This document shows, piece by piece, positions 5,536 through 15,861 of a DNA stretch of 16,995 nucleotides (its first letter is position 1; every line of letters starts with the position of its first letter). This DNA comes from Chloroflexota bacterium. GTDB taxonomy: Bacteria; Chloroflexota; Anaerolineae; B4-G1; SLSP01. The notes beneath the pieces were generated by a model. That model was not told where the DNA came from. It did no database searches and saw nothing but the letters and a program-made list of their open reading frames with translations. Where the stretch lies: the NCBI GenBank assembly GCA_022707665.1, contig JAKJAE010000001.1:1-16995 (forward strand). Direction: 5' to 3'. A program made the position numbers and the translations under genes.

Positions 5536-5760
5536 TCAGCCTCCTGCCATCAGGTGGATTATACGCACATCTGCGTCGGCGGGCACTTCCGTCGATGCAT
5601 AGGCATCGCTCAGCACCACCGTGCCGTCGACGCTGACAACCAACTGAGGATAGGTGTAGTTCATCTGCTGGATGATATCACGCACAGTCATGCCGGGAGT
5701 CCACACAATGGACTCCCGGCGGTTGACCGTTATGGTGGGCGGAGTAGTCGGGCTACTCAC
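5536..5760 (-). CDS. MoaD/ThiS-like ubiquitin-fold sulfur carrier
   Basis: A 74-residue beta-grasp protein ending in Gly-Gly, the C-terminus that is adenylated and thiocarboxylated in MoaD and ThiS. The segment VSVDGTVV (42-49) and the VPADADVRIIHLMAGG tail (59-74) match the family. The GTG start overlaps the AOR stop by 4 bases (GTGA), implying translational coupling. Small MoaD-like genes beside AOR genes are known, and here the protein most likely supplies sulfur for the pterin dithiolene of the tungsten/molybdenum cofactor. Thiamin or 2-thiouridine sulfur transfer cannot be excluded, but no thi or moe genes lie near. Confidence 0.85.
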   Translation of the reverse strand: MSSPTTPPTITVNRRESIVWTPGMTVRDIIQQMNYTYPQLVVSVDGTVVLSDAYASTEVPADADVRIIHLMAGG

Positions 5761-7916
5761 AGGTATCGCTGGACGACCTCGAGGATACTAGCATCGGCGA
5801 GGTCCAGCGCCCGCAACGTGTCAGGTGTAGGTATCCCATTGGATGTCCAGCCGCGGCGGGCATAGACGGCATCAATCAGCCGTTCGTACTGGTCAGTACG
5901 ATGCTCACGATGCGCGGCTAGCTTCTCTTCAGTCGTCATCGTGTTGGGGTCCAGGCCTAGCCAGTCGCGCAGTTGCCGGTCATAGCGATCCTGGCGAGAG
6001 AGGTATTCAGCGGGTGTGACCGGTCCCTGAGAGCGGTACGGCACACGGTCGTGGTCTCGCTGGCCCTTGCCCAATCGGAGGTTGAACACGCGCTGCAGGT
6101 TATACACCCGTTCGGACATGCGGATCAGGTCGTCAGCGGTCACTTCGTGACCTGTCACACCCGAGAAGATCTGGATGTAATTCTCGACGTGGTGAGGGAC
6201 CTTGGCGGGGTCGACAGACAGCGCATTTTCGGGATCGACTACGTCATTCCAGGGGAGCTTGCAGAAGCCGCACAGCCCGAACCAGGTTCGCCACATCGGG
6301 AAGTAGTGCAGAGCCTCGGCCTTGTCCTCGAATGTCGGGATTTGGTTATTGACCTGGTCCATGAATATAAGCCAGGCCTCATCGTGTTGTGGTCCCTTGT
6401 TGGTGAGGCCGTAGCCCCCCTGCTGGGCGAGGGATTCCTTGGTCATGTACTCGGAGTATTCCAGTCCCTTGGCTTCCATTCCGATGTCATCAACGAAGCA
6501 TGGATCGGCGTCAAAGCGTTCCACGAATATCTGCTTCATCCTGCGTATCCCCTGTCCGAGGATCAAGCCGAAACCGACGCCTTCTGCCATCTGGTGGAGC
6601 ACAGCCAGTGCCCCGTCTGCGTTTCCAAAGGACAGATCGATGCCTCCGGTGAGGTCCTCTGTCAGCACACCGGCTTCGAAGCACTCCATAGCAAAGGCCA
6701 TCGAAGTGCCAAATGAGATCGTGTCAATGCCATAGGTGTCGCAGTAGAAGTTGATCTCCAGGATAGCCGCCGGGTCGAAGATACCGCAGTTGCTTCCCAC
6801 GCCAGCGATCGTCTCGTATTCGGGCCCATCGACGATGACACAGCCTCCGGCATAGGGTCCTGTCTGAACACGGTAGTTGTCCACAGCATGGGCACAGGCG
6901 AGGGTGCAGCCATACCAGCAGCCGTCGGGCATATTCTGGGTGAAACGCTGTTCCCATACATCTCCGCTGATCTGTGGGGCGTCCTCGTGCGTGCCGAACT
7001 GGAAGTTCTTGACCGGCAGCAGGTCATAGTCGTTCATGATCTGGACGAGATAGGAGGTGCCCCGGCTGCGCATACGGTTCTGCACAGGGTCCCAACGCGT
7101 TATCTCCTGGCGCATGTCGGCCCCCGTTCGGGCGATGCGGGCAGGATCGGCAGGTCCATTGGTATCGGCACCAAATGGTGTCGTGTGTACGATAACGGCG
7201 CGAATCCGTTTGTGACGGAAGACAGTGCCGATCCCGCCACGTCCGGCCTGCTTGTACCGGAGGTCACGCCGTTTTCGATCGTAGAGGCTGAAGTTGAGAC
7301 AGCCCATTCGCGTAGCCCTGGATCCGCTACCGGTGGATACGAAGGCCATTAACTGGCGATCCGATTCGGAGGCAGCGAACGTGCTATTGATCCAGTGCCC
7401 CAGGACGTGCGTGTCGACGGGGCAATCGTCGGGAACCTCAATGATCCTGACACGTCCCTCACCGCCCCTGCCGGCGCTTGCATCAATGGTCACGATGACA
7501 TCACGCTCAGCTAGCCCCTGGAGTTCGATCGCGTCCCAACCGGCGAACTTAAGATAAGGGCCAAAGTGCCCGCCGGCATTGCTGTCGATGACGATATCTG
7601 TCAGAGGTGATATGGTGGCGGCTATCGACTTCCCTGATCCAGGGTATTGCGATGTTCCACCGCACGGGCCCGAACTGATGACGATCTCGTTTTCTGGGCT
7701 ATCCCAGCGGGTCGCGTCATTGACGGCATGCCAAAGCAACCAGAGATCAAAGCCACGTCCTCCGACAAAGCGCTCCTTCATGTCGTCGGAGACGGGGCGC
7801 GCCACAATCTGGTCGTGACCCACGTTCACGTAGAGTGTTTGGTCCGCATAGCCACGACTCAAAGCGGGGATCGTATACGTGAACTCGGCCAGTACCGCCA
7901 ATTCCTGGTACCTCAT
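5757..7916 (-). CDS. aor: aldehyde:ferredoxin oxidoreductase family tungsten-pterin enzyme
   Basis: A 719-residue cytoplasmic AOR-family enzyme, expected to bind a bis-pterin tungsten (or molybdenum) cofactor and one [4Fe-4S] cluster and to oxidise aldehydes or related substrates with a low-potential acceptor. Seen: VGGRGFD (51-57), the GRGGIGTV segment (225-232) leading into the conserved basic strand, GPEYETIAGVGSNCGI (364-379), GLTNKGPQH (503-511) and GLCGFCKLP (547-555). Cluster cysteines are C333, C337, C341 and C549 or C552. The first triad is spaced Cx3Cx3C, one residue longer than the Cx2Cx3C of Pyrococcus furiosus AOR. It is longer than classical AOR (about 605 residues), with an Arg/Asp-rich C-terminal extension. 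The start is supported by GAGGAGG just upstream. First gene of a four-gene operon; substrate unknown. Confidence 0.9.
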   Translation of the reverse strand: MRYQELAVLAEFTYTIPALSRGYADQTLYVNVGHDQIVARPVSDDMKERFVGGRGFDLWLLWHAVNDATRWDSPENEIVISSGPCGGTSQYPGSGKSIAATISPLTDIVIDSNAGGHFGPYLKFAGWDAIELQGLAERDVIVTIDASAGRGGEGRVRIIEVPDDCPVDTHVLGHWINSTFAASESDRQLMAFVSTGSGSRATRMGCLNFSLYDRKRRDLRYKQAGRGGIGTVFRHKRIRAVIVHTTPFGADTNGPADPARIARTGADMRQEITRWDPVQNRMRSRGTSYLVQIMNDYDLLPVKNFQFGTHEDAPQISGDVWEQRFTQNMPDGCWYGCTLACAHAVDNYRVQTGPYAGGCVIVDGPEYETIAGVGSNCGIFDPAAILEINFYCDTYGIDTISFGTSMAFAMECFEAGVLTEDLTGGIDLSFGNADGALAVLHQMAEGVGFGLILGQGIRRMKQIFVERFDADPCFVDDIGMEAKGLEYSEYMTKESLAQQGGYGLTNKGPQHDEAWLIFMDQVNNQIPTFEDKAEALHYFPMWRTWFGLCGFCKLPWNDVVDPENALSVDPAKVPHHVENYIQIFSGVTGHEVTADDLIRMSERVYNLQRVFNLRLGKGQRDHDRVPYRSQGPVTPAEYLSRQDRYDRQLRDWLGLDPNTMTTEEKLAAHREHRTDQYERLIDAVYARRGWTSNGIPTPDTLRALDLADASILEVVQRYL

Positions 7917-7930
7917 CCTACCTCCTCAGT

Positions 7931-7959
7931 GTGATTGCCTCACCAGATACATGTATTAT
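7931..7959 (+). promoter_or_regulatory. possible promoter of the glycosyltransferase gene
   Basis: TATTAT (7954-7959) could be a -10 box, with GTGATT (7931-7936) 17 bases upstream as a poor -35. It would give a leader of under 20 bases ending in the GGGGGAG ribosome site. Weak evidence; listed because the gene must be read from this short divergent gap. Confidence 0.3.
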
Positions 7960-7983
7960 AGTGTCCGGGGGAGTCGCTGCCAA
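7955..7983 (-). promoter_or_regulatory. near-consensus promoter of the AOR operon
   Basis: On the minus strand TTGGCA (plus 7978-7983) and a perfect TATAAT (plus 7955-7960) are 17 bases apart. The -35 box touches the A of the divergent glycosyltransferase ATG, so transcription of the two genes may interfere. A 10-bp palindrome ATACATGTAT (7947-7956) overlaps the downstream edge of the -10 box and could be an operator. Confidence 0.7.
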
Positions 7984-9467
7984 TGGCCATAGATCATCCA
8001 GATCGGCACAAGGTATCCGCAGTGCACGATAGGATCGTTGTGGGCTTGCTCTGGATTGGATTTTGCGCGCGGGCCTTGCCGATTCTATCCCAGGGTCTCT
8101 GGCGTGATGAGGTCGACCAGTGGCGTTTCGCCTATTTCTCCCTGGATGAGCTTTTGGGCAACCTGACGCGTCCGGGGTGGAATGGTCCGCTCTACTCGCT
8201 ACTTCTCAGGGCATGGATTGCGGCCACAGGCAATACCGTCTATTCGATGCGCTATCTGTCGGTGTTGTTTGGTGTCCTGTCCATCAGTACCGCTTACGTG
8301 CTCGGGCGTTTGCTGATCGGGCGTCGACACGCTGTTACGGTAGCGCTCCTTGTAGCCGTGTCACCCTATATGGTCTGGTATGCCCAGGAGATCAAGATGT
8401 ATACCTGGGTACCTTTCCTCGTGATGTTGGCACTCTATGGAACCACCCAGGGTGCGGAGACGGGTCGCGGACGCTGGTGGTGGCTGGTGTTTTTCGTGAC
8501 GACACTTGCCGTGTACAGCCATATTCTGGCTGCGTTGCTGATACCGGTGCTCGTGCTCTGGTTCTGGCTGCATCCTCGTCGAGCTCCCGGAGCATGGGTT
8601 GGTGGGCTTCTGACGTTGGCGGGATTGAGCTTGCCCTATCTGCCGCTGCTGCGTTGGCAGGCTGCCCTCGCCTTTGTACCACGCGAGACAGGCTTCCCGG
8701 AACGCAGTCTGGGGCAGATGGCCGCTGCATTGCTGAACGGATGGAGCATGGGCATCAGCCAGGGAACCTGGGGAACACGGCTAGGCCTGGCTCTGGGCAT
8801 GAGCGTAGCTGGTGTTGTGGCCGTTCTCGGCTTTGTGGCCTTGTTTGCCAGGCGAGCCTCGGTGGCGCTGCGCCTTGTTGTCTGGTTGGCTGTACCACTT
8901 CTGGGTATCTGGTTGGTGTCACTGTGGAGTCCGATCTTCACCGACAGATATCTGATCTGGTCAGTGCCAGCCTTCTATGCGCTGGTTGCAGCAGGCCTAG
9001 GGCGTCTCGGACGCCCTCTGGGCCTCATTGGGCTGGGCATTCTCCTGGCATACTCCGTGCATGGCCTTGCGGTCCAGGCTACGGATCCGATCAAGCCGCA
9101 ATTCGAGCAAGCGGCGGACTATGTGACGCGGATGCGTGGGCCGGATGACCTGCTGCTGTTCCAGATCCCCTACAACCGTCTTGTCTACGAGGTGTATGCA
9201 GGGGATGCTCTGGGAGTGTGGGCCGAAGCGCCCTTCACCAACTGGCGTGAGCCGGATGGCAGCTATCGTGTCAATGGCACTTACGTGGCGCGCGAGTTAG
9301 CCGGGCTTGTGGGCGGTTACGATCGCGTCTGGTTGGTGTATTCCGAGGTCGCCCTATGGGATGACCGAGAGCTCGTGAAGGGGTGGCTGGACATCGCGAT
9401 GGAAGGGCTGGATCAGCAGCACTACCCCGGCGTATCCGTTTACCTATACGGCCGACGAACGCCCTAA
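7983..9467 (+). CDS. GT39/ArnT-like integral membrane glycosyltransferase
   Basis: A 494-residue GT-C fold protein that would move a sugar from a polyprenyl-phosphate carrier to an acceptor on the outer face of the membrane. Seen: a first membrane helix (about 17-37), then the GT-C acidic pair D42-E43 in LWRDEVDQW, the SPYMVWYAQEIKMYTW segment (127-142) that matches the family's 'SP..WYAQE.KMY' pattern, and about ten membrane helices up to residue 360. A soluble C-terminal domain of about 130 residues follows. The ATG is preceded by GGGGGAG at 9 bases. It stands alone between the AOR operon and the convergent LysM gene. Acceptor (protein, lipid or polysaccharide) is unknown; the nearby secreted Thr-rich LysM protein is a possible but unproven client. 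Confidence 0.82.
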   Translation: MAIDHPDRHKVSAVHDRIVVGLLWIGFCARALPILSQGLWRDEVDQWRFAYFSLDELLGNLTRPGWNGPLYSLLLRAWIAATGNTVYSMRYLSVLFGVLSISTAYVLGRLLIGRRHAVTVALLVAVSPYMVWYAQEIKMYTWVPFLVMLALYGTTQGAETGRGRWWWLVFFVTTLAVYSHILAALLIPVLVLWFWLHPRRAPGAWVGGLLTLAGLSLPYLPLLRWQAALAFVPRETGFPERSLGQMAAALLNGWSMGISQGTWGTRLGLALGMSVAGVVAVLGFVALFARRASVALRLVVWLAVPLLGIWLVSLWSPIFTDRYLIWSVPAFYALVAAGLGRLGRPLGLIGLGILLAYSVHGLAVQATDPIKPQFEQAADYVTRMRGPDDLLLFQIPYNRLVYEVYAGDALGVWAEAPFTNWREPDGSYRVNGTYVARELAGLVGGYDRVWLVYSEVALWDDRELVKGWLDIAMEGLDQQHYPGVSVYLYGRRTP

Positions 9468-9527
9468 CCGCCTGTTGTATGTCGTCGGGGTCGGGCTGAG
9501 AGTTACGGCTGCGTTACGATAGTAACA

Positions 9528-9555
9528 GCGCCGCTGCCCTACTGGGCAGCGGCGC
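9528..9555. terminator. hairpin between convergent glycosyltransferase and LysM genes
   Basis: A perfect 12-bp GC-rich stem (9528-9539 with 9544-9555) with loop TACT lies midway between the two convergent stop codons. It has no T tract on either side, so it is either a factor-assisted or a bidirectional terminator. GTTAC motifs flank it at 9502, 9513 and 9566. Confidence 0.6.
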
Positions 9556-9583
9556 CGACTGCAGAGTTACAACCCGTGGGAAG

Positions 9584-10585
9584 CTAAGGGATGCAGAGAA
9601 CCTGGCCTGGATAGATCAGGTTGAGATTGTAGATCGAGTTGGCCCGGCCAATGGCCCACACGCTCGCGCCGTAGCGTACGGCGATGGCTGTCAGAGTGTC
9701 ACCCCGCACCACAGTGTGGTAGTACCGGCAGCCCGGCACCGGAGTAGGGGTGACAGGATCCGGAGTTGGCACTGTGCCGCCAGGGGTGAACTGCTTCACT
9801 GCGACAGGACCAGCCGGAATCGGAGACCACGGTGCGACTGGGATGGCCAGTTTGGTCCCGACGTAGATCCGGCTCACGTTCACGATGCCGTTGCAGGAGG
9901 CGATCTTGTTGGGCAGCGTGGCGTACGCCCGACCAATCGAGTAGAGTGTCTCGCCAGCGCGTACGACATGGTACCCCTGCACGGTGCAGCCAGTCGGCGG
10001 AGTCGTGGTCGCTGTGGCTGTGGCGGTCGTGGTTGGAGCGGCCGTCGTTGGGACTGGCGTTGTTGAGCCACCGGAGACCGTCACTGCGCCATTCTGGAAG
10101 GTCGCCCCGATCTGCGTGCCACTGGAATCGGCCAGCAGGACGCTGCTGAAGGTGAGTGCGGCTGAGCCGTTCGCCTTGCCCTTGAACGTGACCGTAGCGA
10201 TGACACCGCTGCCGCTCACTGGGCCGTGAGGCGACATCTGCGAGACGCCGAAGTCGACGGTCCCCGCGGTATTGCTCGCCGTGTTCTGAGCAACGAAGTC
10301 ATTGCTCAGGAAACTGCCAAGGGCAACTTGCACCCCGTCAGTCGCTGGATCGGCATCGACCACCTCAAGCTTACCGGCGTCAAAGGTCAGATGGAACTCA
10401 GCCCCAAACAACGCTGTCACATCCGCGACGGTGACGTTGACCACCAGCGTCTCCCCGACGTTCACGGCACCTGCTGCAGGGCTGACTGCGACTATGGTCG
10501 AGGCAGCCATTGCCGGGGTGAACGAGGCGCTCAGCAGGACCACAAGGGTCAAGACCTGTAACGAGAGTCGAGCGATTCTGTTCAT
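9584..10585 (-). CDS. secreted cohesin-like protein with two LysM domains
   Basis: A 333-residue secreted protein. Domains in order: signal peptide (1-28, ending AMA-A); cohesin-like beta-sandwich (about 29-170, with F-H-L-T-F-D typical of the fold); a Thr/Pro/Ala-rich linker (171-198); LysM (204-249, 'YHVVRAGETLYSIG'); a Pro-rich linker; and a second LysM (288-333) ending at the stop. LysM domains bind N-acetylglucosamine-containing glycans such as peptidoglycan, and cohesin domains bind dockerins, so this could anchor dockerin-bearing partners at the cell surface. The ATG at 10585 is preferred over an upstream in-frame start at 10621 because AGGGGG lies 7 bases before it and the signal peptide begins here. 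It follows the cohesin-dockerin gene by 29 bases. Confidence 0.85.
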   Translation of the reverse strand: MNRIARLSLQVLTLVVLLSASFTPAMAASTIVAVSPAAGAVNVGETLVVNVTVADVTALFGAEFHLTFDAGKLEVVDADPATDGVQVALGSFLSNDFVAQNTASNTAGTVDFGVSQMSPHGPVSGSGVIATVTFKGKANGSAALTFSSVLLADSSGTQIGATFQNGAVTVSGGSTTPVPTTAAPTTTATATATTTPPTGCTVQGYHVVRAGETLYSIGRAYATLPNKIASCNGIVNVSRIYVGTKLAIPVAPWSPIPAGPVAVKQFTPGGTVPTPDPVTPTPVPGCRYYHTVVRGDTLTAIAVRYGASVWAIGRANSIYNLNLIYPGQVLCIP

Positions 10586-10614
10586 GTTATATCCCCCTAA
10601 CTGAGTCTTCCGGA

Positions 10615-11622
10615 TCACCACGCCGTTGGACCAACCTTGGTGAAGTTGCCGGCGGCAATGGTCAGATCGAAGATGTTGACCGTGCCGTCATCGTTGATGT
10701 CCGTGGATATTGTACCCCCGGTTCCAAAGACGCCAATGATGCCCACGATGTCAAGGATGTTCACGTTGTTGTCACCATTGACGTCGCCACCGAGGAGTCG
10801 CGTGGTTCCGATGCCGACAGTGGCACCTACGACGTAGACACTGCTCTTCTGAGCCTTGAGGTAACCGTGATCAAACGCCTGAACCTGGTACACGCCACCC
10901 TGCGGAACGGTGATGGTGAAGTTGCCTGCCGCGTCCGTCGTGGCCGTACCGACCACACCGCCCCCGGTGTTGTAAGCAGTCAGGCTAACACCCGAGAAGT
11001 CGGTCTGGCCTTGCTCCTCAACACGTCCGGTGATCGTTCCCGCCGGGACGATTGAGATAGCAGGAACCGAGGTGCTGTTGATGGGCACAGTGTTGCCATC
11101 GACATCCGCCAGAACTGTGTCGGTCAGGACAGCCAGCCCGGTGGGGCCTACGGCAAGGCCTCCCCAAGTGATCGTGGCAATCTTGCCGGTCTTGTTAGTG
11201 ATCGGCGCACCCGTATGGCTCAGTGCGAGGTGGACGCAGGAACCGCCACCTGGGCACGTCTCTGCTCCATAGGGAAGCACGATGTTTTTGGCGACCACAA
11301 CAGAACCGCCAAAGAACCCGGTGGACACGTTGACCTGAACGCCGTTGGCGGGGTTGTCGTCCGCGTCATCGACATTCACGATAGCCGGATCGAACCCGAG
11401 GTAGAGGTCGACCCCCATCACGCCCAACATCGGCGTTGCATTGTTGACGATCGAGAGGCTCACGTCGGTCGTGAAACTTCCCCCCACAACGGGGGCGCCC
11501 GAAGTGACATCGCTCACGATCACCGACGTGTAGTAGTTGGGAGCCTGGGCCAGGACAGCCTGCGGGAGCAGACTGAGCAGCATTGCCATTGCCAGTATCA
11601 GCGACCAGTGTTTCTTCTGCAT
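10615..11622 (-). CDS. secreted cohesin-like / carboxypeptidase-regulatory-like / dockerin protein
   Basis: A 335-residue secreted protein. Domains in order: signal peptide (1-25, cleavage after AVLA); cohesin-like domain (about 30-192); a carboxypeptidase-regulatory-like beta domain (195-276, with TTDAAGNFTITVP); and a C-terminal type I-like dockerin (278-331). The dockerin has two complete calcium loops with the D-x-N-x-D-x3-N-x2-D pattern: D280/N282/D284/N288/D291 and D308/N310/D312/N316/D319. No catalytic domain is seen. The dockerin could bind the cohesin-like domain of the next gene product, or the protein's own kind in chains. AGGAGG 6 bases before the ATG fixes the start. Such non-cellulosomal cohesin/dockerin proteins occur in several bacteria and archaea; the function is unknown. 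Confidence 0.87.
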   Translation of the reverse strand: MQKKHWSLILAMAMLLSLLPQAVLAQAPNYYTSVIVSDVTSGAPVVGGSFTTDVSLSIVNNATPMLGVMGVDLYLGFDPAIVNVDDADDNPANGVQVNVSTGFFGGSVVVAKNIVLPYGAETCPGGGSCVHLALSHTGAPITNKTGKIATITWGGLAVGPTGLAVLTDTVLADVDGNTVPINSTSVPAISIVPAGTITGRVEEQGQTDFSGVSLTAYNTGGGVVGTATTDAAGNFTITVPQGGVYQVQAFDHGYLKAQKSSVYVVGATVGIGTTRLLGGDVNGDNNVNILDIVGIIGVFGTGGTISTDINDDGTVNIFDLTIAAGNFTKVGPTAW

Positions 11623-11792: not shown

Positions 11793-11820
11793 TTGTCTTC
11801 CCGTCGATCTCAGGTAGAAT
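11793..11820 (+). promoter_or_regulatory. putative promoter of the dksA-like/lspA operon
   Basis: TTGTCT (11793-11798) and TAGAAT (11815-11820) are 16 bases apart. Transcription would begin near 11827, giving a leader of about 23 bases before the ATG at 11850. Confidence 0.5.
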
Positions 11821-11849
11821 TGCGAGACAGCATACTAGGGAGAGGGATC

Positions 11850-12197
11850 ATGCCAGTAACCTATGCCGAACTACGGCGCCGTCTCGAGGAGAAGAGACAA
11901 GAGCTGCGCAGGCAGTTGGACGATGTCCAGCGTGAGGTGCGTGAGGACGGTGTTGGCTACAGCAACCACATGGCCGATGCTGGCACCGAAGTCTTCGAGC
12001 AAGAGCGTGATCTGAGTCTGGCCAAGCGGATGCAACACACCTATCGCAACGTCGAGGTCGCCCTGGAGAAGTTCGACGATGGAACTTACGGCATCTGCGA
12101 GTCGTGTGGCGCACGCATTGAGCTGGCCCGCCTGGAGGCAGTGCCAGAGGCTGCCTATTGCCTGGATTGCCAGTCACGTCGTGAACTCAGGCGATGA
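11850..12197 (+). CDS. TraR/DksA-type C4 zinc-finger protein (YteA/YlyA-like)
   Basis: A 115-residue cytoplasmic protein with an N-terminal charged coiled-coil region (about 5-75) and a C-terminal C4 zinc finger: C83 and C86, then C104 and C107 (Cx2C-x17-Cx2C). The segment SNHMADAGTEVFEQERD (38-54) matches the Gram-positive YteA/YlyA type rather than proteobacterial DksA. Relatives act on RNA polymerase through its secondary channel; that role is inferred here. The ATG at 11850 is chosen because AGGGAGAGGG lies directly upstream. Its TGA overlaps the lspA start. The order DksA-like - lspA - rluD-like matches ylyA-lspA-ylyB of Bacillus subtilis. Confidence 0.88.
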   Translation: MPVTYAELRRRLEEKRQELRRQLDDVQREVREDGVGYSNHMADAGTEVFEQERDLSLAKRMQHTYRNVEVALEKFDDGTYGICESCGARIELARLEAVPEAAYCLDCQSRRELRR

Positions 12198-12739
12198 TGT
12201 CGGCAGAGGGTGGGGCCACCCGGGCAGGTCCGGGGGCGTTCTCTTCCACTGTGGGGCATCTCCTTTTTTCCGGCATCGCCACCCTTGCTCTCATCGTGGA
12301 CCAGGTGACAAAGGCCAGGGTCGTCGCAATGCTGTCTCCCAATGAAACCACACAACTCGCGCGGTGGCTTGCCCCGATTCTATCGCTGACCCACGTTGAG
12401 AATCGTGGCGTCGCGTTTGGTCTGTTCCCGCGCCTTTCAGGCCTGTTCACGGTCCTGTCACTCATCGTGATCATCGGCATCCTTGTTTTCAGACGCTCTC
12501 TCCCTGCTGATGCTCTCTGGCTTCACGGAGCCCTGGGGCTGGTCACGGGTGGCGCTGTGGGTAACTTGTGCGATCGTGTCCTGCGTGGCCACGTGGTCGA
12601 CTTCATCGACGCAAACGTGTGGCCGCTGGCGACCTGGCCGGTGTTTAACCTAGCCGATGCGGCTATCGTTGCCGGCGTTGTGGTACTTCTGGTTGATTCT
12701 GTTCGCGCGGAACGTGAGGGGGCCCTTGTCAGTGCTTGA
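12194..12739 (+). CDS. lspA: lipoprotein signal peptidase (signal peptidase II)
   Basis: A 181-residue inner-membrane aspartyl protease that removes the signal peptide from diacylglyceryl-modified prolipoproteins. Seen: four hydrophobic membrane segments, DQVTK (36-40), ENRGVAFG (69-76), GGAVGNLCDR (119-128), VVDFID with catalytic D136, and FNLAD with catalytic D155. About 20 extra N-terminal residues precede the first helix. The start may be either ATG of the ATGATG at 12194-12199; both overlap or abut the upstream TGA, so translation is probably coupled. Expected to be active. Confidence 0.95.
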   Translation: MMSAEGGATRAGPGAFSSTVGHLLFSGIATLALIVDQVTKARVVAMLSPNETTQLARWLAPILSLTHVENRGVAFGLFPRLSGLFTVLSLIVIIGILVFRRSLPADALWLHGALGLVTGGAVGNLCDRVLRGHVVDFIDANVWPLATWPVFNLADAAIVAGVVVLLVDSVRAEREGALVSA

Positions 12740-13673
12740 TGAGAGAACGCTGTCGATCGAGAGGGCGACCCGTCTGGATCAGGCGCTTGTGGTTGTCTGG
12801 CCGGCGCTAGATCGCCGCCAGATCCGCTTGCTGGTGACCGGTGGCAGTATTGAAGTCAACGGTGAGAAAGCCCGCACTGTGGGCCAACGCCTTGAGGTCG
12901 GGGACGTGGTGAAGGTCCAGTTGCTGGCTGCACATCCTGCACCGGCGGCGGTGCCGCCGCCCGGGCTGGCCCTATCCGTGGTCTACGAGGATGATGTGGT
13001 GCTGGTCGTTGACAAGCCCGCTGGGATCCCTGTCCGGCCGACGCGCCGGTCGACGCTATCGGGGATGCTTTCTGCGACGGTGCCCCAACTCCTTGAGGAG
13101 CGCTACCCGCAGTCTGCACACGTTGGGGGTGTGGGGCGGGCCGGTGTCGTTACGACGTTGGGTGACGACGAATCGGGGTTGATCCTGGTGGCCAGGGACG
13201 AGGTGACCTACCGGGAGCTCAGGCGATCGGTGAAGCGCCAACGCGTTGCGGAGACCTATACAGCGTTGGTCGAAGGCAACTTACGCGGGGAATTCACGAT
13301 TGACCAGCCTATCGGGAATGCGAAACGCGCGCGCGAGCGCTTGACTGCTTCGCGCGAGGGACGTCCTGCCCTTACCTATGTGCGAGGTCAGCAACACTTC
13401 AAAGAGGACGACCGCGACTACACCGTGGTCCTGGTGCGACCACAGACGTCGCGACTTCACCAGATCCGGTTGCACCTGGCCTGGTATGGGTTCCCAATCG
13501 TTGGGGATCGCGTCTATGGCACTAAACGCCAGGCGGTGCTTCCCGACCGGATCTTTCTGCACCTGAGCGAGATGCGGTTCCCACATCCCGTGACGCTTGA
13601 GGAAGTGCGCGTGGAGTCGGTGTTGCCGCCGGAGCTGTTCTCGCTCCTCGCTTATATGCGACGTCCCAAGTAG
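12732..13673 (+). CDS. RluD/YlyB-family pseudouridine synthase homologue lacking the catalytic Asp
   Basis: A 313-residue protein with an N-terminal S4 RNA-binding domain (about 12-64) and an RluA/RluD-type pseudouridine synthase domain (82-300). Fold markers remain: VVYEDDVVLVVDKPAGI (83-99), TYTALVEG (175-182), IDQPIG (190-195), TSRLHQIRLHL (239-249) and VGDRVYG (257-263). The active-site motif HRLDxxTSGL is instead TTLGDDESGL (141-150), so the catalytic Asp is Gly144 (codon GGT, 13161-13163) and the preceding His-Arg are Thr-Thr. Uridine isomerisation by the usual route is not expected; it may bind RNA without modifying it. The GTG at 12732 (AGGGGG 9 bases upstream) overlaps lspA by 8 bases. 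There is no frameshift or stop. By position it corresponds to ylyB. Confidence 0.85.
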   Translation: MLDERTLSIERATRLDQALVVVWPALDRRQIRLLVTGGSIEVNGEKARTVGQRLEVGDVVKVQLLAAHPAPAAVPPPGLALSVVYEDDVVLVVDKPAGIPVRPTRRSTLSGMLSATVPQLLEERYPQSAHVGGVGRAGVVTTLGDDESGLILVARDEVTYRELRRSVKRQRVAETYTALVEGNLRGEFTIDQPIGNAKRARERLTASREGRPALTYVRGQQHFKEDDRDYTVVLVRPQTSRLHQIRLHLAWYGFPIVGDRVYGTKRQAVLPDRIFLHLSEMRFPHPVTLEEVRVESVLPPELFSLLAYMRRPK

Positions 13674-13726: not shown

Positions 13727-14539
13727 ATGCGTGAGTTGAAAGTTGCCGTGGTGCAAATGCGTCCGGAGCTTGCCAAGATGGAGGAGAACGTTGGCAAGAT
13801 GTCCGAGACGATTGCGCGAATCGCTACGGAGCAGCCTGTTGATGTGATCGTATTCCCCGAGTTGTCGGTGACCGGCTATGAGGGTGGCGCGCGGTTTGCG
13901 CAAATGGCGCAGCGGGTCCCTGGAGCCGTTACGAACATTCTGGGCCAGCATGCCACCGATTTCGGCGTGTACGTCTTGATCGGGATGGCGGTCAAGGAAG
14001 ACGTTGAGACCGTTCTGTACAACGGCGCCGTCCTGATCGCGCCCGACGGAGAAGTCGCGGGTACGTACCGCAAAGTGCATTTGCCGGCAGAGGAGCGACT
14101 GAGCTTCCGCCCCGGTTACCAGATCAGGCCCATTGAGACCGAGGTCGGTGTGCTCGGTGTCATGACGGGCTGGGATCTCACCTTCCCGGAGATGGCCCGG
14201 AGCTTGATGCTGGGGGGTGCCGAGATCATTTTGCTGCCCGCAGCGTGGCAGGCCAAGGACGCTGACATGTGGCGCACGCTGCTCGTTGCACGTGCCTATG
14301 AGAACGACATCTTCATCGCGGCGGCGAACCGCATTGGTGAAGAACCGTCCTATTCGTTTGCAGGTCAGAGCGCTGTTCTATCGCCAGCGGGTGAGGTAAT
14401 GGCGGCGCTCGAAGAGCCAGAAGAAGGATACGTCGTCGTGCGCTTGGACCTCGATGAGGTGCGGCACCGGCGGGAGGAGTCCCAGATCATGCTGGCTCGA
14501 CAGCCGAATTCCTACCGGCCCATCGTGCGCAAGTACTAG
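13727..14539 (+). CDS. nitrilase-superfamily (carbon-nitrogen hydrolase) homologue lacking the catalytic Cys
   Basis: A 270-residue protein of normal length for the nitrilase superfamily, which hydrolyses amides or nitriles through a Glu-Lys-Cys triad. E45 (FPELSVTGY), K116 (YRKVHLP) and a second Glu around E123 are present. The nucleophile motif, usually ICYD or ICWD before FPE, reads TGWDLTFPE, so the Cys position is Gly148 (GGC, 14168-14170). The rest is well conserved: PAAW (171-174), LLVARAYENDIFIAAANR (185-202) and the GQSAVLSPAGEV end strand (213-224). The frame is intact, so a binding or regulatory role is more likely than decay. AAGGAG 5 bases before the ATG supports the start. It follows the RluD-like gene by 53 bases and is last in the operon. 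Confidence 0.87.
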   Translation: MRELKVAVVQMRPELAKMEENVGKMSETIARIATEQPVDVIVFPELSVTGYEGGARFAQMAQRVPGAVTNILGQHATDFGVYVLIGMAVKEDVETVLYNGAVLIAPDGEVAGTYRKVHLPAEERLSFRPGYQIRPIETEVGVLGVMTGWDLTFPEMARSLMLGGAEIILLPAAWQAKDADMWRTLLVARAYENDIFIAAANRIGEEPSYSFAGQSAVLSPAGEVMAALEEPEEGYVVVRLDLDEVRHRREESQIMLARQPNSYRPIVRKY

Positions 14540-14641: not shown

Positions 14642-15796
14642 TCAGAGGCTTCGTTCGTAAATCCTGTACGTTCTGTAAAGGCGCCCATTCATGTTGGCTG
14701 CGGTCTGGCGCATCGGCAGGTTGCTCTCCAGGACCCAGGAGAACTCGATGTCCTTGTACTTCGGTACACACCGCTTCATCGTCTCGACAATAATGAGTGC
14801 GTGGAGACCCTGAGGACGGTACTCCTCAACCACCCCTCCGGCAAACGCCCGGATCGTCGTGACTCTCTTCCTCACCTTCCAGTTGTACAGCATCTTGGCC
14901 ATCGTCCACCACTCGGGAACGCCTGGGCGAGGATAGGCCCTGTGCAATGCCTGGTTCAGGTCCGGAATGGGGAGCCCTGCGGCGACAGGGCGCTCACCTT
15001 TGAACACGAAGAAGATCGTATCCGGGTCGATGATCGGCTTGAGCGCACTGATCTCATGATCGAGTTCCGCGTCGGTGAGTGGCACGAACCCCCAGTTTTT
15101 GGACCAAGCCTGGTTGTAGACTTCTTTGAAGAAGCCCGCATCTCGTTTGAAGTTCGCCATATCGATGGGGCGAATCGTGACGTCGGAACGTTGCCGGGCA
15201 TGCTCGGCAACCCGCAACAGTTTCGGGTTGAGCCCGGTTCCATCCGGTTTCACACTGCGGACATCGGACAGGAATGCGAACAGATTCTGTGCAGTCGAGT
15301 ATCCCGCGTTCTCGATGTAGTCGACGTAGTAGCGTGGATTGTAGGTCATCATAACCACGGGAGGGCCATCCCAGCCATCCACCAGCAGACCGCACTCCTC
15401 ATTCGTGGAGTAGTTCATGGGGCCGCGAATGGTGTCGAGCCCCTCTTCTCGCAGGAATGCCTCAGCGGTGCGCAGAAGCTCGCGCGCGGCCTCCTCGTCC
15501 TGCAGCACCTCGAACAGCCCAAAGAAGCCGACCTCGTCGTTCCAGTAGTAATTGTGGTTGTAGTTCACGATGGCGGCGATGGTGCCCACCATCTTGCCGT
15601 CACGCTTCGCCGCGAAGTAGCGCACCTTGGCGTGTTGGTGGAATGGGTGCCGCTCAGGATCTACGAACGCATCGCGTTCCGAGAGAAGTGGTGGGACCCA
15701 ATAGGGGTCACCGCGGTACACTTCCCACTGGAAACGGACAAACTGCTTCCTCTCGGCAGCGGTCTCGATCGGAACGATCGCAAGCTTGCCTGCCAT
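14642..15796 (-). CDS. GNAT-like acyltransferase-fold protein of about 380 residues
   Basis: A 384-residue cytoplasmic protein of a widespread family usually annotated as GNAT-like N-acetyltransferase or hypothetical. Seen: FQWEVYRGDPYWVPPLLSE (22-40), NPF-like 'HPFHQHAKVRYFAAKRDGK' (50-68), VGTIAAIVN (70-78), GFFGLFE (90-96), RGPMNYSTNEECGLLVDG (124-141) and YNPRYYVDYIENAGY (152-166). The first half carries the acetyltransferase-like fold and the second half a second GNAT-like unit. Substrate unknown. The open frame reaches 15847, but ATG 15796 is chosen because AGAGGAGG lies 7 bases upstream and a clear promoter precedes it. An open frame on the opposite strand of similar length is a shadow. 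Confidence 0.83.
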   Translation of the reverse strand: MAGKLAIVPIETAAERKQFVRFQWEVYRGDPYWVPPLLSERDAFVDPERHPFHQHAKVRYFAAKRDGKMVGTIAAIVNYNHNYYWNDEVGFFGLFEVLQDEEAARELLRTAEAFLREEGLDTIRGPMNYSTNEECGLLVDGWDGPPVVMMTYNPRYYVDYIENAGYSTAQNLFAFLSDVRSVKPDGTGLNPKLLRVAEHARQRSDVTIRPIDMANFKRDAGFFKEVYNQAWSKNWGFVPLTDAELDHEISALKPIIDPDTIFFVFKGERPVAAGLPIPDLNQALHRAYPRPGVPEWWTMAKMLYNWKVRKRVTTIRAFAGGVVEEYRPQGLHALIIVETMKRCVPKYKDIEFSWVLESNLPMRQTAANMNGRLYRTYRIYERSL

Positions 15797-15861
15797 AATG
15801 AGTCCTCCTCTATGATGCCAATGACGAGATGTGGGGCTACAGCGCACGCATAATGATACCG

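Follow-up and report, generated by a model that had tools for sequence, protein, structure and literature searches.

Loss of the catalytic residues from a selected, lspA-linked RluD-type protein in a family of Chloroflexota, a probable RNA-binding pseudoenzyme

We analyzed a stretch of 16,995 nucleotides from a metagenome-assembled Chloroflexota genome of the class Anaerolineae, and the term window denotes this whole stretch. Its central feature is an RluD-type gene that directly follows lspA within a conserved gene neighborhood. The features that matter for this locus, all on the plus strand, are as follows (clade denotes the degenerate clade to which the encoded protein belongs).

11793..12197, plus strand: gene of a DksA/TraR-type zinc-finger protein, the start of the conserved neighborhood (Pfam zf-dskA_traR, synteny)
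12194..12739, plus strand: lspA (signal peptidase II), the upstream neighbor (Pfam Peptidase_A8; neighborhood kept in relatives)
12732..13673, plus strand: putative RluD-derived pseudoenzyme gene, with a GTG start and 313 amino acids plus stop; S4 domain, then pseudouridine-synthase fold
12771..12911, plus strand: S4 RNA-binding domain, residues 14-60 (Pfam PF01479, 28.1 bits, cut-off 22.8)
12999..13481, plus strand: degenerate pseudouridine-synthase catalytic domain (PF00849, PseudoU_synth_2, 66.9 bits against a gathering cut-off of 26.8)
13152..13181, plus strand: degenerate motif II, residues 141-150, TTLGDDESGL where HRLDxxTSGL is expected (codons, alignment)
13257..13259, plus strand: Tyr176, the conserved active-site Tyr, kept (Tyr in 91% and Phe in 9% of 140 clade rows, which still include locus/database repeats)
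13452..13475, plus strand: RLHQIRLH, motif III, the substrate-groove segment, kept (read as R241-L242-H243-Q244-I245-R246)
13727..14539, plus strand: carbon-nitrogen hydrolase (nitrilase superfamily), the downstream neighbor, kept in the family of the window (Pfam CN_hydrolase, synteny)

The remaining genes that we note lie on the minus strand. Two adjacent secreted-type proteins are encoded at 9584-11622, one of which combines cohesin and LysM domains; its neighbor carries a carboxypeptidase-regulatory-like domain and, judged only by eye, a C-terminal dockerin-like pair of calcium-loop repeats; it is possible that they form a cell-surface cohesin-dockerin pair. An aldehyde ferredoxin oxidoreductase-type enzyme (AFOR_N, AFOR_C) lies at 5757-7916, and a protein with the uroporphyrinogen decarboxylase fold, whose best-matching stretch covers just the C-terminal half of the Pfam model, at 130-1356. 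The 401-residue protein at 14642-15847 has no Pfam match at E 1e-5, and a relative of it adjoins the nitrilase gene in another genome of the family (G003, locus L172, by eye).

The original prediction described an intact gene, coupled to lspA, that retains the S4 domain, the KPAG strand and the RLHQIR segment of a pseudouridine synthase. All of this holds: the reading frame at 12732-13673 is complete, it shares 8 bases (12732-12739) with the lspA frame, the S4 domain is recognized at the score given above, and both the KPAG segment and motif III can be read in the protein. The N-terminal S4 domain and the RluD-like fold are those of an RluD orthologue, and the PF00849 match, the active-site Tyr and the RxHQIR form of motif III are those of an RluA-family enzyme. 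What is missing from such an enzyme is the Asp of the xRLD motif, where the protein has Gly144, and the base-flipping Arg two residues earlier, where it has Thr142. The protein just misses the NCBIfam model TIGR00005 (rluA_subfam; 183.7 bits against a curated cut-off of 192.7) and falls far under the RluD equivalog model NF008385 (137.1 bits against 351).

The best phmmer match among PDB sequences is E. coli RluD, the 23S rRNA pseudouridine 1911/1915/1917 synthase (1v9f_A, E 5.7e-31, residues 12-310). In this alignment, IVHRLDKDTTGL of E. coli RluD is paired with VVTTLGDDESGL of the window protein, so that the catalytic Asp139 (numbered by counting along the 326-residue E. coli RluD chain 7bl5_7) falls on Gly144. 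Thr142 takes the place of the base-flipping Arg and Thr141 that of the motif His. The window protein thus differs from E. coli RluD in all three residues, and the replacement of His, Arg and Asp in TTLGDDESGL, first reported from the sequence, is confirmed by the codons and by the alignment. Related enzymes need the residue equivalent to Arg142: RluB R108A is reported to have 0.6% activity, and Met and Lys variants of RluA to be inactive (PMC3919597).

We also considered whether Asp145 or Asp146, placed one and two residues off the catalytic position by the original prediction, could be a relocated nucleophile. Of the 64 canonical rows, 62 have Lys or Arg at position 145, where the clade varies among Pro, Glu, Thr, Asp, Ala, Arg, Val, Lys and Ser. 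An acid (Asp or Glu) at position 146 occurs in 61 of those canonical rows and also in 121 of 131 clade rows. Neither residue therefore looks like a nucleophile that has moved; as far as an alignment can tell, both are off the catalytic position and a relocated nucleophile is rejected.

The degenerate motif is shared by relatives at the same locus. The window-type gene is present in 22 of 24 genomes of the family, and none of the 21 orthologues with a readable motif has HRLD (the copy in G005 is a fragment); HRLD at this locus in close relatives would have pointed to a sequence error. HRLD is likewise absent from the 120 best of 445 database matches, and the cluster of the window protein itself holds 7 member sequences on 10 contigs. 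Among the 64 canonical relatives that we aligned, 63 read HRLD and one HRID. The gene was not found in two family genomes: in G003, the contig stops 111 bases past the nitrilase gene, and in G015, which is 77% complete, the nitrilase neighbor was not found either (best match 37% identity).

Among 396 genomes drawn from the class, the full-length window-type matches, at 433-495 bits, all lie within this family, and the best match outside reaches 335.8 bits in a genome (G034) whose lspA-linked copy (L024) reads HRLD; this class-wide spread rests on match scores, the motifs having been read for a minority of the other class genomes. Outside the family, the catalytic Asp is kept in all 69 rows from 67 loci, which were picked through motifs other than the catalytic one. 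The named genomes with the window-type gene are all Chloroflexota (Chloroflexi, Chloroflexota, Anaerolineae, Thermoflexales, Thermoflexia, Thermoflexus). Where a JGI name is given among the best 120 of the 445 matches, it is '23S rRNA pseudouridine1911/1915/1917 synthase', which for much of the clade is probably an incorrect assignment of function.

The neighborhood is equally stable. Of the 21 family loci whose motif can be read, lspA lies upstream in 20, dksA in 19, and the nitrilase gene downstream in 18, and the loci that lack lspA or the nitrilase gene are at contig ends. For the two further families of the order that were sampled, the corresponding gene is accompanied by lspA in 21 of 22 loci, by dksA in 20 and, within the flanks examined, by the nitrilase gene in 8. 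The lspA-linked RluA-family enzyme of these sister families is an orthologue of the window gene by its neighborhood and its place in the tree (98/85), and is 43-49% identical to the window protein in 20 of 22 cases. It differs in that it has an intact HRLD in all 22 loci and is the sole match in 21 of the 22 genomes.

A separate copy with HRLD was found in 18 of the 24 family genomes, the motif being intact in all 18; in G005, it occurs together with the fragmentary window-type copy. The second, intact RluD that the original prediction proposed to look for thus exists in most of the family, although not in the 73%-complete assembly of the window itself, where the contig with lepA stops 101 bases upstream of this gene, short of the expected place of the HRLD copy, and where the search for TlyA yielded no more than a weak match of S4 length. 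The six family genomes in which no HRLD copy was found are all 69-84% complete. None of dksA, lspA and the nitrilase gene appears in the examined flanks of the HRLD copies. Instead, the HRLD copy is followed by an S4-FtsJ (TlyA-like) gene and lepA in four of five loci (G004, G002, G021 and G022), and neither tlyA nor lepA was found beside it in the fifth (G007). As a side observation, the order canonical rluD, tlyA-like S4-FtsJ gene, lepA is read at 6624-10288 of locus L204 (G004, with Pfam) and also at L205, L207 and L208, which places the intact RluD of the family among translation genes in four of the five loci examined.

To place the two copies, we built a first tree of 84 rows, which omits the fragments L022, L071, L073 and L077, the distant L078-L080 and the named family loci L081-L092 and L095, and which uses 14 of the 67 outside loci. 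In this tree, the degenerate clade is supported at 100/100, sits on a long stem branch (0.62 changes per column), and joins the lspA-linked enzymes of the order at 98/85. Together with the neighborhood, this identifies the window gene as the native lspA-linked RluD-type gene of its family. The HRLD copies, for their part, cluster with a different family of the class (93/97), which speaks against a duplication inside the family as the source of both copies; by the AU test, however, a sister relation of the two copies is not rejected (p 0.206), so that the additional HRLD copy may have arisen either way.

Across the clade, the active site has drifted rather than changed once. Among 131 non-redundant members, His141 is kept in none, and position 142 is Arg in 71 and has lost it in 60. 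Position 144 is Glu in 64, Asp in 43, Gly in 20, Ala in 3 and Val in 1, such that Asp144 is absent from 88, about two thirds of the clade. The original interpretation of a protein derived from a modifying enzyme is supported, with the addition that the Asp is not lost throughout the clade. Even a near relative, P0003, which is 88% identical to the window protein, has Asp at the position of its Gly, and a large MRxE subclade holds Glu there almost without change. A quick tree, built without the motif columns and without 9 locus rows that duplicate database rows, gives at least 16 switches between Asp and non-Asp at position 144, at least 8 changes of Arg142 and one of His141, counts to be read with its 51 weakly supported forks and its long-branch warning in mind.

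Arg142 and Asp144 are both kept in 12 of the 131 members and both missing from 29. The 12, all without the motif His, are P0075, P0076, P0079, P0087, P0091, P0098, P0099, P0102, P0103, P0117, L016 and L018. Since these members retain both residues, the sequence does not mark every member of the family as inactive; they are possibly still active and could serve as a useful contrast set. The clade may accordingly be functionally mixed, with some activity in these RxxD members and perhaps in the large Glu subclade, and residual or altered catalysis may persist outside the subclade of the window protein.

The rest of the protein tells of retention and of gain. Of 48 positions with an invariance of 95% or above among 47 canonical rows, 24 are still conserved at 90% or more in the clade; as a control, the HRLD copies of the same family keep 47. 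The residues retained by the clade include Lys95, Tyr176, Arg241, His243, Gln244, Arg246 and His248, and those kept in less than half of it are V101, H102, P103, L122, H141, D144, T147, G188, R196, G240, T242 and A278. By the same 140-row table as was used for Tyr176, repeats included, Tyr160 (100%), Leu278, Trp23, Asn196 and Gln52 are newly near-fixed. The dN/dS of the window-type gene is 0.09-0.21 in nine of ten pairs of related genomes, the tenth being saturated, compared with 0.08-0.16 for lspA (nine of ten pairs) and 0.06-0.16 for the HRLD copy (seven of eight pairs); dS exceeds 1 in several pairs, and three of the ten have the genomes G020, G022 and G023 in common. These values show that the protein is selected. 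Although it changes faster than the nitrilase gene downstream, the gene is clearly selected as a protein, and no stop was found inside any of the listed gene matches of the family. Altogether, loss of the catalytic residues is combined with a retained fold and protein-level selection, the features that mark a pseudoenzyme.

These observations bear directly on other explanations for the locus. A sequencing or assembly error is conceivable in a metagenome-assembled draft of 513 contigs and 73% completeness, but HRLD is missing from all 21 readable family genomes and from the 120 best of 445 database matches, and the same protein cluster recurs on several contigs; independent genomes without HRLD at the locus refute this explanation, to which we attach a negligible probability. 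Decay of a pseudogene that survives through its place in the lspA operon would account for the degenerate motif and the long stem branch. It is nevertheless rejected by dN/dS values similar to those of lspA in the same pairs, it is at odds with uninterrupted frames, with half of the family-invariant positions still fixed and with new ones nearly fixed, and we regard it as very improbable.

The explanations that grant the protein a function are harder to separate. The protein might still be a pseudouridine synthase or another RNA-modifying enzyme, with an active site re-tuned for a new substrate through Glu or Asp at position 144 or a nearby acid, and with the Gly members as an oddity. Glu and Asp are indeed the two commonest residues there, position 146 keeps its acid, and the kept Tyr176 and Arg241, the new near-fixed residues and the low dN/dS suggest a specific function. 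At least 16 changes between Asp and non-Asp are unexpected for a nucleophile, though, and the loss of Arg142 from 60 members, the normal presence of an acid at 146 in canonical enzymes and the Gly144, Thr141 and Thr142 of the window protein itself all weigh against this explanation, which we consider unlikely. Somewhat less likely still is a regulator or antagonist of canonical RluD, which would occupy the same rRNA site or pre-50S particle and time or limit modification. It would fit the joint presence of both copies in 18 of 24 family genomes (as a fragment in G005) and the loss of catalytic residues from a protein that keeps motif III and the S4 domain, and inactive RluC D144A, which is reported to have worsened the growth of an E. 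coli multi-deletion strain, indicates that such a protein can interfere (PMC11194073); against it, the two genes sit in different neighborhoods.

Known systems offer partial parallels. Vertebrate RPUSD3 resembles the window protein as an RluA-family member in which the catalytic Asp is replaced by Gly; this close homologue of the active RPUSD4 is reported to have no noticeable activity on human rRNA or tRNA, and its function is said to remain undiscovered (PMC12716993). On that account, the RluA family has made such a change at least once elsewhere. RPUSD3 is a vertebrate protein, and nothing in our analysis shows common descent of its Asp loss with that of the clade. The RluD-like chains 6yxx_EC, 7aoi_XP and 7am2_BZ of trypanosomatid mitoribosome assembly intermediates are about 20% identical to the window protein. 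A literature search, mainly of listings and abstract openings, found no report of a bacterial RluA-family pseudoenzyme.

Engineered mutants described in one report point in both directions (PMC11194073). Inactive RlmB and RlmKL still helped the growth of an E. coli multi-deletion strain, so that rRNA-modifying enzymes can have non-catalytic roles. Inactive RluC D144A, which makes no extra pseudouridine, gave no assembly rescue in that strain and worse growth, so that a dead enzyme is not automatically a chaperone.

We therefore return to the reading that we prefer, namely, that the lspA-linked RluD-type protein is a pseudoenzyme that would bind RNA without isomerizing uridine and act as a chaperone or placeholder in ribosome assembly, for which we estimate a probability of roughly 0.78. 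The loss of catalytic residues, the selection and the conserved neighborhood are observed; RNA binding and the role in assembly are probable, judging from the retained residues. The protein retains its fold, its S4 domain, Lys95, Tyr176 and motif III, has gained near-fixed residues and is under strong selection, and a non-catalytic RNA-binding protein is consequently the most likely product of the gene. The loss of catalytic residues under strong selection, with a second intact copy in most genomes, likewise suggests that the protein probably holds RNA rather than modifies it.

The course of events may be pictured as follows. The separate canonical HRLD RluD, encoded elsewhere in most genomes, presumably performs the pseudouridylation, which would have freed the lspA-linked copy. 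His141 was lost once, before the family diversified, and the catalytic position has since drifted among Asp, Glu, Gly, Ala and Val. The protein would bind structured RNA in the groove of RluD, with 23S rRNA or a pre-50S particle as the probable target, and would assist ribosome assembly as a chaperone or placeholder while isomerizing no uridine. We give slightly better than even odds to the broader proposal that across the whole family the RluD encoded in the operon has become an RNA-binding factor devoid of catalysis, with the second RluD keeping the modification, as a bacterial counterpart of RPUSD3.

A standing question is whether rRNA-modifying enzymes matter mainly for the modification or for the handling of RNA, and it is usually approached through engineered mutants (for example, PMC11194073). 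In this family, the chemistry appears to have been lost in the course of evolution and the protein retained family-wide, and the orthologue at the same locus in sister families keeps the motif. Given these intact orthologues and the repeated flips at the catalytic position, the locus would, if our reading is true, amount to a natural experiment in which the chemistry of an rRNA-modifying enzyme is uncoupled from its role as a chaperone.
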